In this document: positions 45,740 to 50,456 of the stretch, piece by piece | Layout of the letters: every line of letters begins with the position of its first letter | How positions within the stretch are numbered: the stretch's first letter is position 1 | DNA from: Desulfobacteraceae bacterium | GTDB taxonomy: Bacteria; Desulfobacterota; Desulfobacteria; Desulfobacterales; JAABSP01 | Assembly: GCA_011390345.1 (NCBI GenBank) | Contig: JAABSP010000023.1 | Coordinates: 1 to 64,000, forward strand | Reading direction: 5' to 3' | Length of the DNA: 64,000 nt | Program-made: the position numbers and the translations under genes | The notes under the pieces: model-generated | The model's input: the letters and a program-made list of their open reading frames with translations, nothing else | Told to the model about the DNA's origin: nothing | Databases searched by the model: none

Positions 45740-46336
45740 TCAGGTCTCGCTATCCAGCCGAATCGTATGCGTAGAACAGGAGATGCACGGATCATAGGCC
45801 CGCACCAGCATCTCCATCCCCAGCCGGATCTCCCGGTCATCCCCGTCGGAGATCCCCGTCACATAATCCGCTAAATCCGCATTGATGCTGCCGAGATTCT
45901 GCGCCGTGGGAATCAGTTGGTTGGCGTAGGTGCAGATCCCGTTTCCGTCGAATTCATACTCGTGAAAAAGGGTCCCTCTGGGCGCTTCCACCACGCCCAC
46001 GCCGCGGCCGGCTTTGGGAACCGCCGGTTTTTGGGGCCGCAGATCCAGCGGCGCCTGCTCGAGCAGCACAAATGGCTCGATCTCCGGGGAGGAAAGCTCG
46101 GGGGGATCGCCTTCCCGGTAGGTGAAGACCGTCTCCTCGGGCGGAAAAAACCCCTTTTTGGGCGGAAGATCCGTGGTCGTATACTCCGGAACCCAGTCCG
46201 ACGGCTTCTCCAGCCAGTCGAAGATGACGGTTTCGGGGGCTTTGGGCCGGCACCGGGGCCCCATGACCGGCAAATCCTTCAGAAGATCTGCCAGCAGCCG
46301 CTCCATCTCCCTGTGGGTGATAATGTAGTTCGTCAT
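45740..46336 (-). pseudogene. Chimaera of a sulfhydrogenase beta subunit and a Ni-hydrogenase large subunit
   Basis: The first 85 or so residues (MTNYIITHREMERLLADLLK, then PKKGFFPPEETVFTY) match the N-terminus of sulfhydrogenase-type beta subunits. After FVLLE the frame continues with the C-terminus of a Ni-dependent hydrogenase large subunit (VVEAPRGTLFHEYEFD, LIPTAQNLGSINADL, and the nickel-ligand end DPCISCSTH). In complete operons these subunits are separate, with other genes between. One deletion that removed the middle and fused the frames explains this. The product lacks most of both subunits. Confidence 0.82.
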
Positions 46337-46512
46337 ATCCTTTGGGTTGTTTTTGGTTTCAAAACAACGGGTTTTCCAGTTTTCCATTTATACAGGGTAT
46401 CAAAAGGGAAGAATGCGCGTAAATGGGTAAAAGACTGTAGATTTCAGGTACAGGATCAAGCCATGACAGAATTGCTGTTGACATCAATTGCGCACTACCC
46501 TAATCTAAATTT

Positions 46513-46743
46513 ATGGAAAACGTAACCGTCACACTCGATGAAGAGATCGCATCATGGGTTCGGGTCAATGCCGAACAGCGCGGAACCGATATATCCATAC
46601 TGGTCAGCGAGATTCTGGAAGAAAAAATGCGGGAAGAAGAGGGCTATTACAAATCGATGCGGAACTTCCTTTCCAGACCTCCATCGATGATAAATGCATC
46701 CGGAACAGCGTATCCTTGCCGCGATACCCTTCATGAGCGATAA
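46513..46743 (+). CDS. Ribbon-helix-helix antitoxin
   Basis: A 76-residue protein starting MENVTVTLDEEIASWVRVNAEQ, the typical CopG/RHH DNA-binding opening, with a charged middle (ILEEKMREEEGYYKSM). It overlaps the PIN toxin by 11 nt. It should bind its own promoter and the toxin. Confidence 0.75.
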   Translation: MENVTVTLDEEIASWVRVNAEQRGTDISILVSEILEEKMREEEGYYKSMRNFLSRPPSMINASGTAYPCRDTLHER

Positions 46744-47182
46744 AATATTTGTCGATACGAATGTCCTTGTCTATTGCCGTGATGCTGGGAAACCGGAAAA
46801 GCAAGACCGGGCAATGGCTTGGATTGCGCATCTTTGGAAATCCAGGACGGGTCGAATAAGTGTTCAAGTTTTTCAGGAATATTATTCGATAGTTACGACT
46901 AAACTCAAGCCGGGAATGGACCCTTTGAATGCTCGTGAAGATGTCGAGTCGCTATTTGCATGGCGACCGATTTCGGTCAATGCGGCTGTCATCAGAGGCG
47001 CATGGAACATTCAGGATCGATATCGACTCTCCTGGTGGGATTCATTGATCGTATCCGCTGCACTGATCGACAATTGTGATTTCCTTCTGACGGAAGACCT
47101 GCAGAGGAATCAGAAGTTTGAAAACCTTCGTGTAATCAATCCCTTTGATTATACGCCGGAATCTCTCCTCTCTCAGAGATAA
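46733..47182 (+). CDS. PIN-domain toxin (VapC-like)
   Basis: A 149-residue PIN protein with KIFVDTNVLVYCRD near residue 3, VQVFQEYYSIVTT near 44, LSWWDSLIVSAAL near 104 and FLLTEDL near 122. These give the expected four acidic positions. ATG 46733 lies inside the antitoxin gene end. The two genes form a VapBC-like pair. Confidence 0.88.
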   Translation: MSDKIFVDTNVLVYCRDAGKPEKQDRAMAWIAHLWKSRTGRISVQVFQEYYSIVTTKLKPGMDPLNAREDVESLFAWRPISVNAAVIRGAWNIQDRYRLSWWDSLIVSAALIDNCDFLLTEDLQRNQKFENLRVINPFDYTPESLLSQR

Positions 47183-47409
47183 TCCTGCTTTTTTCTACCA
47201 TTGTTTCATTGAATCCATTTCTTATCAGTAAAATGAGAAAAAACTCTTTACGGGAATTCGTTTTTTGGTTATGAATGGAAAGCAGGTCTGTTATCGAATG
47301 ACATGACCCCTGCGCTCATAACCGGTAAAGAGGAAGGGGGGATGCAAAATTCCATCGAAGTTCCGGCAGGTTGTACCACTTTAACTTCAATGTGAGAAGG
47401 AGACAGGTG

Positions 47410-47760
47410 ATGGCCAATTTTCTTTTTGTCCTGAGCAAGGACGACAACGAGGCGGCGACCCGGTGTTTTCAGTTTGCGAAAATCGCCCATTCCAAGGATC
47501 ACAACGTCAATGTCTTTCTGATCGACGGCGGCGTGATGTGGGCAGATAAAGAGCGGAACATGGATATCAAGTCCCCCACCGGGGACTGCCCCAACGACTA
47601 TCTCCCCTATCTTGTGGAAAAGGAAGTCCCCATCGGGGTCTGAATCCCCTGCGCCAAGGCTCGTCAGGTTGACGAGTCCAGGTTTTTCGCCAACATGATC
47701 CTCGACGGCGGCCCCAATCTGATCGATATGGCGGCAGAAGCCAAGGTTTTCAACTTTTAA
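47410..47760 (+). CDS. DsrE-family protein with in-frame UGA: predicted selenoprotein
   Basis: A DsrE/DsrF-like protein of 116 residues if the TGA at 47641-47643 is read as selenocysteine (position 78). Before it: MANFLFVLSKDDNEAATRCF through VEKEVPIGV. After it, in frame: IPCAKARQVDESRFFANMIL and on to AEAKVFNF, then TAA. Relatives have Cys at the Sec position, so the motif becomes U-x-x-C, a redox pair. A hairpin of the bacterial SECIS type follows the UGA (47660-47676). DsrE-like selenoproteins are known from sulfate reducers. ATG 47410 follows AAGGAG. Standard gene callers would stop at 47643. The 227-bp gap before it shows no gene. Confidence 0.87.
47660..47676 (+). promoter_or_regulatory. 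Predicted SECIS hairpin
   Basis: A perfect 7-bp stem, CTCGTCA with TGACGAG, and a GGT loop begin 16 nt after the UGA. Stem position and a G/U loop match bacterial SECIS elements, which bind SelB and recode UGA. Confidence 0.7.
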
Positions 47761-47897
47761 TTCATTTTGCCGATCCGGATTTTGCATTGTAAATAAAGAC
47801 AACAGGTTTGCTCGGCCTTTTCTCTGTTGAAGCTGTTTTCCCGCGCAAACCTGTTTTTGTTCCGGACTTGACCTTCGGAATCGGTTGCGGAGATCCA

Positions 47898-48365: not shown

Positions 48366-48448
48366 GGAAGAGGAAGCGCGCCTTTCTTTTTGAATGTTGA
48401 GGGTGAACGAAATATCGAAAGCAGATAATATCCCAAAATATTTATGGA

Positions 48449-48501
48449 TTGACAAAACTCCCCTTTCCGGTTACATTCAGACTGGTCTAAAAACTAGTCT
48501 G
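48449..48501 (+). promoter_or_regulatory. Promoter and inverted-repeat operator of a Phd/PIN pair
   Basis: TTGACA (48449-48454), 17 nt, TACATT (48472-48477) is a near-consensus sigma70 promoter. An imperfect inverted repeat, CAGACTGGT and ACTAGTCTG (8 of 9 pairs, 6-nt spacer, 48478-48501), covers the expected start point, as in autoregulated antitoxin operons. Confidence 0.7.
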
Positions 48502-48513
48502 AGGAGGTTGATG

Positions 48514-48753
48514 ATGGAAACAGTCGGTGCATATGAGGCCAAAACGAATCTTCCCAAGCTGCTGGAACGGGTCAAAAATGGGGAGCGCTTTACGATCACA
48601 AAACATGGCGTTCCGGTTGCGGTTTTACAACCCGCGGATAGCCGAAAAACGATGAATATTGAATCCGTCATTCAAGAACTCCGGAAATTTCGGGAAGGAA
48701 ATTCTCTGAACGGCATTACGATTCGGGAGATGATCGAGGAAGGAAGACGTTGA
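48514..48753 (+). CDS. Phd/YefM-family antitoxin
   Basis: A 79-residue protein with the Phd opening METVGAYEAKTNLPKLLERV and KHGVPVAVLQP near 32. The N-terminus binds the operator and the C-terminus the toxin. AGGAGG lies 6 nt before ATG 48514 (a second ATG at 48511 is too close). It overlaps the toxin gene by 4 nt. Confidence 0.88.
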   Translation: METVGAYEAKTNLPKLLERVKNGERFTITKHGVPVAVLQPADSRKTMNIESVIQELRKFREGNSLNGITIREMIEEGRR

Positions 48754-49172
48754 TCTCTGAAATTTTTGTTGTGGACAATTCCATTGTCATGTCCTGGTGC
48801 TTCAATGATGAAGCCAATGATTACGCAGATCGTGTCCTTGACCGGCTTGCCGCAGGAGCTGCATTCGTACCCTCCATCTGGCCCCTCGAGGTGGTGAATG
48901 TTCTGCTGGTGGCCGAGCGAAAAAAAAGACTCGAAACATTCGACTGCGTTCGTTTCCTCAGATTTCTGGAACAATTGCCAATCACTGTCGAATATGGGCA
49001 AGGGGAAGTGAGAATGAAGGAGCTGCTATCGCTGGCAAGGTCAAACCGTTTATCGAGCTATGATGCCGCTTATCTGGATCTGGCAATGCGAAAGGGAGTA
49101 CCGATTGCCACCCTTGACAATGCCCTGGCGAAAGCGGCCAAAAAGACAGGGATAGCCATCCTTACGGCCTGA
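48750..49172 (+). CDS. PIN-domain toxin (VapC-like) paired with Phd antitoxin
   Basis: A 140-residue PIN protein: FVVDNSIVMSWCFNDE near residue 6, IWPLEVVNVLLVAERKKR near 42, LSSYDAAYLDLAMRKGVPIATLD near 100. The acidic residues are in place. The start is TTG 48750 overlapping the antitoxin stop; GGAAGG precedes it. Confidence 0.88.
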   Translation: MISEIFVVDNSIVMSWCFNDEANDYADRVLDRLAAGAAFVPSIWPLEVVNVLLVAERKKRLETFDCVRFLRFLEQLPITVEYGQGEVRMKELLSLARSNRLSSYDAAYLDLAMRKGVPIATLDNALAKAAKKTGIAILTA

Positions 49173-49295: not shown

Positions 49296-50456
49296 TCAAC
49301 AAGGCTCGGCTCTTTCGGGCGTCATCGGCCTATCGGATTGCTTCATACCGCCCCGGAACCCCTTTGGAGGAGAGGACGATCTGCCAGAGCTGGTTCTTTC
49401 GGGCCCGGAAAGCCGGAAAGCCCCCGCGCAGGAGAGAAGATAATACTCCCACATCCGGTAGAACTGTTCATCATACTTTTCCTTAAGATCCTCCCAGCTT
49501 TCGGTGAAATTCCGATGCCATTCCAGAAGGGTCTTTTCATAATCCGTACCCAGGTTCTGCCAGTCCTCCAGCACGAAATACTTTTCAACGGCACTGCTGG
49601 TCTGTCCGGGGCTGGGGAGCATGGAGTTGGGGAAGATGTATTTTTCAATCCAGGGATCGGTATTTTTGGCGGCCCGGTTCCGGCCGATGGTCTGGAGCAG
49701 AAAGAGCCCGTCGTCCTTTAAAAGGCTGCAGATGACCCGCATATAGGTCTCATAGTTCTTATACCCCACATGCTCGAACATCCCCACTGAGACGATCCGG
49801 TCGTATTTGCCCGACAGCTCCCGGTAATCCTGCAGCCGGATCTCCACCGGCAGCCCTTCTGCCATCTCCCGGCCGTATTCGGCCTGCTCTTTAGATACGG
49901 TGACGCCGGTCACCTCTGCGCCATACCGCTCCGCGGCAAAGCAGGCGGCTCCGCCCCAGCCGCATCCCACATCGAGCACCTTCATGCCGGGCTCCAGGTG
50001 CAGCTTTCGGCAGATCAGGTCAAGTTTGGCCTCCTGGGCCTCGTCCAGAGTGCAGGCGTCTTTCCAGTAGGCGCAGCTATAGACCATGTATTTGTCGAGC
50101 ATGGATTTAAAGAGATCATTGCCGGTGTCATAATGGCGCTCGCCGATTTCAAAGGCCCGGGTCGATTTCTGAAAATTGTAGATCGTAGCCCTGGCATAAT
50201 CGACGGCAGACCGCCAGGTCCGAACGCTCTCCTCGATGCCGGCCGAAAGAATCCGGCAGAAGAACTCATCCAGCCGGGGACAGTCCCACCAGGTCTGCAT
50301 GTAGGACTCCCCCAGCCCCAGGGACCCTTTGGTGAGGATACTCGGATAGAGTTGAGGATCGTACACCCGGATATCCCAGGGCCGCTCTCCGTTGATTTGG
50401 ATGTCTGCCTTTTCCAAATACCCTCGGACCCTTTTTTGAAACGTCGATAGTTTCAT
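49296..50456 (-). CDS. cfa: Cyclopropane-fatty-acyl-phospholipid synthase with frameshifted C-terminus
   Basis: A 386-residue frame in which all but the end matches Cfa (E. coli 382): FEIGERHYDTGNDLFKSMLD near 125, the SAM site VLDVGCGWGGAACFAAE near 178, and VSVGMFEHVGYKNYE near 242. It methylenates double bonds of membrane phospholipids. A perfect 8-bp tandem duplication (49405-49420) shifts the frame after AGAFR. The other frame encodes the expected ending, ARKNQLWQIVLSSKGVPG and a stop at 49330. As written, the last 25 or so residues are foreign, so function may be impaired. The start 50456 follows AAGGAGG. Confidence 0.88.
   Translation of the reverse strand: MKLSTFQKRVRGYLEKADIQINGERPWDIRVYDPQLYPSILTKGSLGLGESYMQTWWDCPRLDEFFCRILSAGIEESVRTWRSAVDYARATIYNFQKSTRAFEIGERHYDTGNDLFKSMLDKYMVYSCAYWKDACTLDEAQEAKLDLICRKLHLEPGMKVLDVGCGWGGAACFAAERYGAEVTGVTVSKEQAEYGREMAEGLPVEIRLQDYRELSGKYDRIVSVGMFEHVGYKNYETYMRVICSLLKDDGLFLLQTIGRNRAAKNTDPWIEKYIFPNSMLPSPGQTSSAVEKYFVLEDWQNLGTDYEKTLLEWHRNFTESWEDLKEKYDEQFYRMWEYYLLSCAGAFRLSGPERTSSGRSSSPPKGFRGGMKQSDRPMTPERAEPC
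49405..49420. repeat. Perfect 8-bp tandem duplication causing the cfa frameshift
   Basis: CCGGAAAG occurs twice in a row. Deleting one copy restores the conserved C-terminus of Cfa. Confidence 0.9.

Follow-up and report, generated by a model that had tools for sequence, protein, structure and literature searches.

DsrE-like selenoproteins with a UxxC motif have been known since 2005, when two sequences were described from the Sargasso Sea (PMC1088965). A further one was found in 2006 in Desulfovibrio vulgaris (PMC1794560), followed in 2008 by 21 selenocysteine (Sec) sequences, named DsrE 1 and DsrE 2, in the Global Ocean Sampling data (PMC2398784). A DsrE-like reference is available as WP_014524487.1, and the functions are still described as uncharacterised for the most part (PMC13188914). 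Among proteins of the same fold with cysteine, Allochromatium DsrE uses Cys78, a residue essential in vivo, to bind sulfane sulfur and pass it to DsrC (PMC3397948). In sulfate reducers, a second DsrEFH type is known whose active site contains a cysteine (PMC13293266). Recoding of another kind has been described in Desulfobacterales and Syntrophobacterales, in the form of the selC*/selB*/cysS* system, whose selC* is a tRNA-Cys with a UCA anticodon (PMC7609411). Here we analysed a stretch of 64,000 nucleotides (the window) from a Desulfobacteraceae bacterium (contig JAABSP010000023.1). One of its genes almost certainly adds a new sequence to the DsrE-like UxxC selenoproteins, which an earlier note on this DNA, made from the letters alone, had rightly placed in sulfate reducers.

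The frame starts with ATG and closes with TAA (47758-47760), the TGA at codon 78 being the sole in-frame stop before it (Table 1). This TGA lies in a UIPC motif, with U78 and C81 forming the UxxC pair. DsrE (PF02635) is the only Pfam match of the readthrough protein, with an E-value of 8.5e-20 and a score of 71.5 bits, above the gathering threshold of 22.7 bits. The match covers residues 4-116 and spans the TGA, beyond which the protein continues as IPCAKARQVDES...AKVFNF. The observation of a TGA-interrupted DsrE frame with a hairpin downstream is thereby confirmed, and everything the earlier note stated about the sequence proved right, including the readthrough into homologous sequence, the UGA in place of the first Cys of a CxxC pair and the perfect 7-bp stem. 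Its warning that gene callers would lose the redox site is also borne out, as truncation at the TGA would remove the active site.

Table 1. Features of the DsrE-like gene and its immediate surroundings in the window.
Feature	Position	Strand	Remarks
Predicted DsrE-like selenoprotein CDS	47410..47760	+	116 aa, Sec at 78; PF02635 match full-length across TGA; 85 close homologues align over their whole length
TGA codon 78, predicted to be read as selenocysteine (U78 of UxxC)	47641..47643	+	TGA in 35, TGC/TGT in 50 distinct homologues, TAA/TAG in none
C81 codon, putative resolving Cys of UxxC	47650..47652	+	Invariant across all aligned Sec and Cys members
SECIS-like bacterial hairpin	47658..47678	+	Core stem 47660-47666/47670-47676, loop GGT 47667-47669, plus two weaker outer pairs
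AAGGAG, Shine-Dalgarno-like	47397..47402	+	7 nt upstream of ATG; from sequence
Terminator-like inverted repeat	47801..47855	+	15-nt arms, 93%, then T residues; downstream of the gene's true end

Scanning about 85,000 genomes of bacteria and archaea revealed at least 80 close relatives with identities of 69-83%, hosted nearly all by sulfate-reducing delta-type bacteria. Whole genomes contributed further relatives, and once duplicates had been discarded the comparison set comprised 85 distinct genes. Close homologues with a genuine stop at this point had been named beforehand as what would speak against a selenoprotein; the homologues instead have either TGA plus the hairpin or Cys (Table 1), and no internal stop was found outside codon 78 in any of the 85 genes. 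The median pN/pS is 0.11 downstream of the TGA versus 0.21 upstream, indicating that purifying selection is stronger downstream.

These comparisons bear on three other readings of the codon. If the UGA were a real stop, the product would be a 77-aa truncated protein or the gene a decaying pseudogene, with the hairpin as its terminator, and a terminator scan does call the hairpin terminator-like. However, the short T run behind this call is produced by Phe codons, and past the true gene end lies a repeat that makes a better terminator candidate. Moreover, the frame behind the TGA is conserved in 35 TGA genes at the low pN/pS given above, stops occur only as TGA and only at the Cys codon, and the active site would go with the truncation. 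We therefore regard a real stop as very improbable, the comparative data having in effect refuted it. A sequencing error might be suspected in a contig from a MAG, yet 34 further distinct genes, drawn from many assemblies, share the TGA at this codon. General reassignment of TGA is opposed by normal TGA ends in other genes of the window, such as the CMAS gene at 49296, and by homologues that carry Cys, not Trp or Gly, at this site. Error and reassignment together are scarcely credible.

In a tree built from 115 columns, with deep forks unresolved, the window gene falls among the Sec forms, and at least five changes between Sec and Cys are needed. One Cys homologue (TGC; L019:636-980), which stands next to the Sec gene L018, has kept the complete Sec-type hairpin and its QVDES context. 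It probably represents a recent change from Sec to Cys, the hairpin being a fossil SECIS. A second, distant DsrE subfamily of about 40% identity comprises L118 and L123, from genomes G010 and G011, and a Cys relative, L120. L118 and L123 likewise carry UGA at this position, and their hairpin is compensated, so Sec use in DsrE proteins appears broader than the close subfamily. No homologue was found in the plasmid records searched, and weak phmmer matches to C12orf65 release factors (E 0.02-0.04) were judged to be due to chance.

The hairpin, CTCGTCA-GGT-TGACGAG (47660-47676), begins 16 nt 3' of the UGA. It has the form of a bacterial SECIS element, that is, a hairpin just downstream of the UGA with a small apical loop containing G. 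A stem of at least five pairs at this fixed place occurs in 32 of 35 Sec genes versus 4 of 50 Cys genes, although the genes are related and P values overstate their independence; every one of the 35 Sec genes has G as its first loop base. In the Sec set, 75 conserved degenerate codons were compared, and synonymous conservation is highest at codons 85, 86, 88 and 89. Four of the five hairpin codons are thus the most frozen of the gene, as CGT (34/35), CAG (35/35), GAC (35/35) and GAG (32/35), whereas the same codon window in the Cys genes shows synonymous conservation below average. In L118 and L123, which share 41% and 39% identity in the alignment, the middle U-A pair is replaced on both sides by C-G. 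As Asp88 is replaced by Gly there, the pairing was kept while the residue changed. RNAalifold and pair counts detected no covariation above shuffles in the 32 close Sec sequences, because most core pairs never vary. The folding energy of the single-sequence hairpin is unremarkable (z = -1.3), so that the case for the hairpin is made by the comparative evidence. No SECIS family of Rfam was matched even at relaxed thresholds, and the two weak matches obtained were at chance level.

The genome of the window is available as an assembly of 4.79 Mb in 199 contigs, 97% complete. The earlier note had directed attention to the sel genes. Of these, selA (3e-180), selB (1.8e-107, one full copy) and selD (1.9e-115) are present, whereas Rfam, an anticodon-loop/T-loop pattern and a BLAST search with the selC of a relative all failed to find selC in the assembly. 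A tRNA-Sec pattern match on contig C108 was rejected, since ARAGORN did not recognise a tRNA there. SelD carries an in-frame UGA at GAGUASKLPP and is itself a predicted selenoprotein, which gives the genome at least one predicted Sec codon besides that of the DsrE-like gene. The selD locus (L010, G000:C131) adjoins a SirA-plus-DsrE protein resembling YedF.

Intact selC genes were found in 19 of the 25 genomes searched (73-81 bits), including both well-assembled relatives of the same family (G001 and G003), where selC lies about 260 bp past a gene for a 362-aa protein. In the window's genome the collinear contig C81 (5,471 bases) breaks off within this gene, leaving 196 residues of it, with 68-69% identity. 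Hence selC is likely to fall into an assembly gap, which is the likeliest reading of its absence from the assembly. A fragment at the end of contig C197 shares its protein family with the gene that precedes selC (54% identity) and has no selC behind it; we take it to be a paralogue, but it may instead continue C81, and selC would then be missing there. All 11 relatives with TGA forms possess selB, a weak test because selB is present in 52 of the 58 genomes overall. The genome also contains dsrA (1.5e-184), suggesting that the host is probably a sulfate reducer. The assignment to the DsrE family, with UxxC and in a sulfate reducer, thus holds, on PF02635, on dsrA and on the published family (PMC1088965, PMC1794560).

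The same hairpin could also serve to decode UGA 78 as cysteine, by a selC*-type tRNA-Cys with a UCA anticodon and a second SelB*. Within this bacterial order, such a selC* stands beside a second selB in G013, G016, G019, G020, G025, G050 and G051, and the assembly to which the window belongs yielded no canonical selC. However, this assembly, about 97% complete, contains a single full selB and yielded no tRNA of the selC* kind, SelD is present with a Sec codon of its own, and 11 of the 12 genomes with a TGA form have no second selB. Cysteine decoding is therefore unlikely in the window's genome, where we give it very little weight, and may occur in others, e.g. G019. In the seven genomes with this arrangement (L179-L185, from G019, G016, G020, G013, G025, G050 and G051 respectively), the second selB is divergent and the tRNA gene beside it is a second one resembling tRNA-Sec; canonical selC is present as well in G013, G016, G019 and G020, and the arrangement matches the published selC*/selB* (PMC7609411). 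A similar tRNA with a GCA anticodon was observed at L187 (G008).

Based on the comparative evidence and on the presence of selA, selB and selD, we consider it highly probable that UGA 78 is read as selenocysteine and that the gene belongs to the known DsrE-like UxxC family, in a sulfate-reducing member of the Thermodesulfobacteriota. This confidence extends to the decoding only. The interpretation of the earlier note, a DsrE-family selenoprotein, is therefore supported. We propose that SelB, bound to the hairpin behind the UGA, would bring Sec-tRNA to the ribosome, and that reading of UGA 78 as selenocysteine would yield the protein of 116 residues.

The structure was predicted with a pLDDT of 97.7 and adopts the DsrE fold. 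Its nearest solved folds are YchN, 3MC3, 3PNX, DsrE (2HY5 chain A) and TusD, with Z scores of 14-17 for YchN, 3MC3, DsrE and TusD. In the model, residue 78 sits at the end of the strand 75-78, ahead of the helix 79-84, and in a profile alignment U78 falls on Cys78 of Allochromatium DsrE. On the other hand, the score of 19.5 bits against the DsrE/TusD sulfurtransferase equivalog TIGR03012 misses the cut-off of 89.25 bits, and no tusA, dsrF, dsrH or dsrC (nor tusC or tusB) adjoins the gene. The window protein is therefore not a member of DsrEFH or TusBCD. Neighbourhood clustering across 81 loci revealed no conserved neighbour that would name a substrate; the two biggest clusters were reading frames overlapping the selenoprotein gene itself and were discarded as partners.

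The flanking genes are TrmO and PIN toxin genes. PIN-domain toxin genes lie on either side of the gene (46513-47182 and 48394-49172, plus strand), one accompanied by a Phd/YefM antitoxin and the other by a small upstream frame without Pfam match. On the minus strand, a frame of 215 aa (45743-46387) has a weak match to the N-terminal part of ShyB (sulfhydrogenase beta, E 0.01), joined to the C-terminal end of ShyA (sulfhydrogenase alpha, 326-415/415, 7e-19), with the terminus DPCISCSTH. It resembles what an internal deletion in a hydrogenase operon would leave behind.

Fold and active-site homology suggest that the protein could work on its own as a sulfurtransferase or persulfide reductase, in which Sec78 would be the nucleophile and Cys81 the resolving residue; for this role we see the balance as about even. 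In such a mechanism, the selenolate of Sec78 would accept sulfane sulfur as Se-S-H, or attack a persulfide or disulfide, and Cys81 would release the product or the reduced protein via a transient Se-S bond. The protein might thus act alone and fast in the sulfur metabolism of the cell. We found no demonstration in the literature of a sulfur-transfer role for any DsrE selenoprotein. The main functional rival is a general thiol-redox role: a genuine selenoprotein acting in thiol or peroxide redox, as a thioredoxin- or peroxidase-like UxxC protein, or in selenium or metal handling, and not in sulfane-sulfur transfer. Redox selenoproteins typically have a UxxC motif, DsrE-like proteins are grouped with thiol-based oxidoreductases in published lists (PMC1088965, PMC1794560), and the lack of adjoining tusA, dsrF, dsrH and dsrC fits as well. 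However, U78 occupies the position of the persulfide-bearing Cys78 of DsrE/TusD, the fold is that of DsrE and not of thioredoxin, and the host is probably a sulfate reducer. We hold this alternative to be quite possible. More tentatively, this stand-alone DsrE protein, which is widespread among sulfate reducers, may be a selenium-based sulfurtransferase, in which Sec replaces the persulfide-carrying Cys78 of DsrE/TusD and sulfane sulfur is passed on in the form Se-S-H. Where a relative has selC together with selC*, the supply of selenium might even decide whether this UGA is read as Sec or as Cys. If sulfur transfer is the true function, selenium would be tied to the transfer of sulfane sulfur in these bacteria.

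The gene illustrates cleanly how standard gene calling would truncate a selenoprotein and lose its active site, and the finding is useful for annotation. With many relatives of both the Sec and the Cys form, one Cys gene still bearing the hairpin (L019) and an RNA pair that co-varies although the amino acid differs, the family is well suited to testing the interchange of Sec and Cys.

Compared with the published DsrE-like UxxC family (Pfam02635), the window protein is alike in Pfam family, in having Sec for the first Cys of CxxC, in a SECIS-like hairpin directly downstream and in a sulfate-reducing delta-type host. It differs in being a new sequence from a different lineage, the comparison covering family and motif description, and about 35 close members were collected here versus published counts of 1-21. 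DsrE of Allochromatium vinosum DsrEFH (2HY5) and E. coli TusD (2D1P) share the fold (Z 14-15) and have Cys78 where U78 falls, whereas identity is about 22%, they have a single Cys there in place of UxxC, and the window gene has no DsrF or DsrH nearby. E. coli YchN (1JX7) and Sulfolobus 3MC3 are the nearest folds (Z 16.6), and in YchN a CxxC occupies the corresponding position, but identity is 17-20% and both use cysteine only. The selC*/selB*/cysS* system of related bacteria (PMC7609411) resembles the present proposal in reading UGA through SelB-type delivery, but it would insert Cys and was not found in the window's genome.
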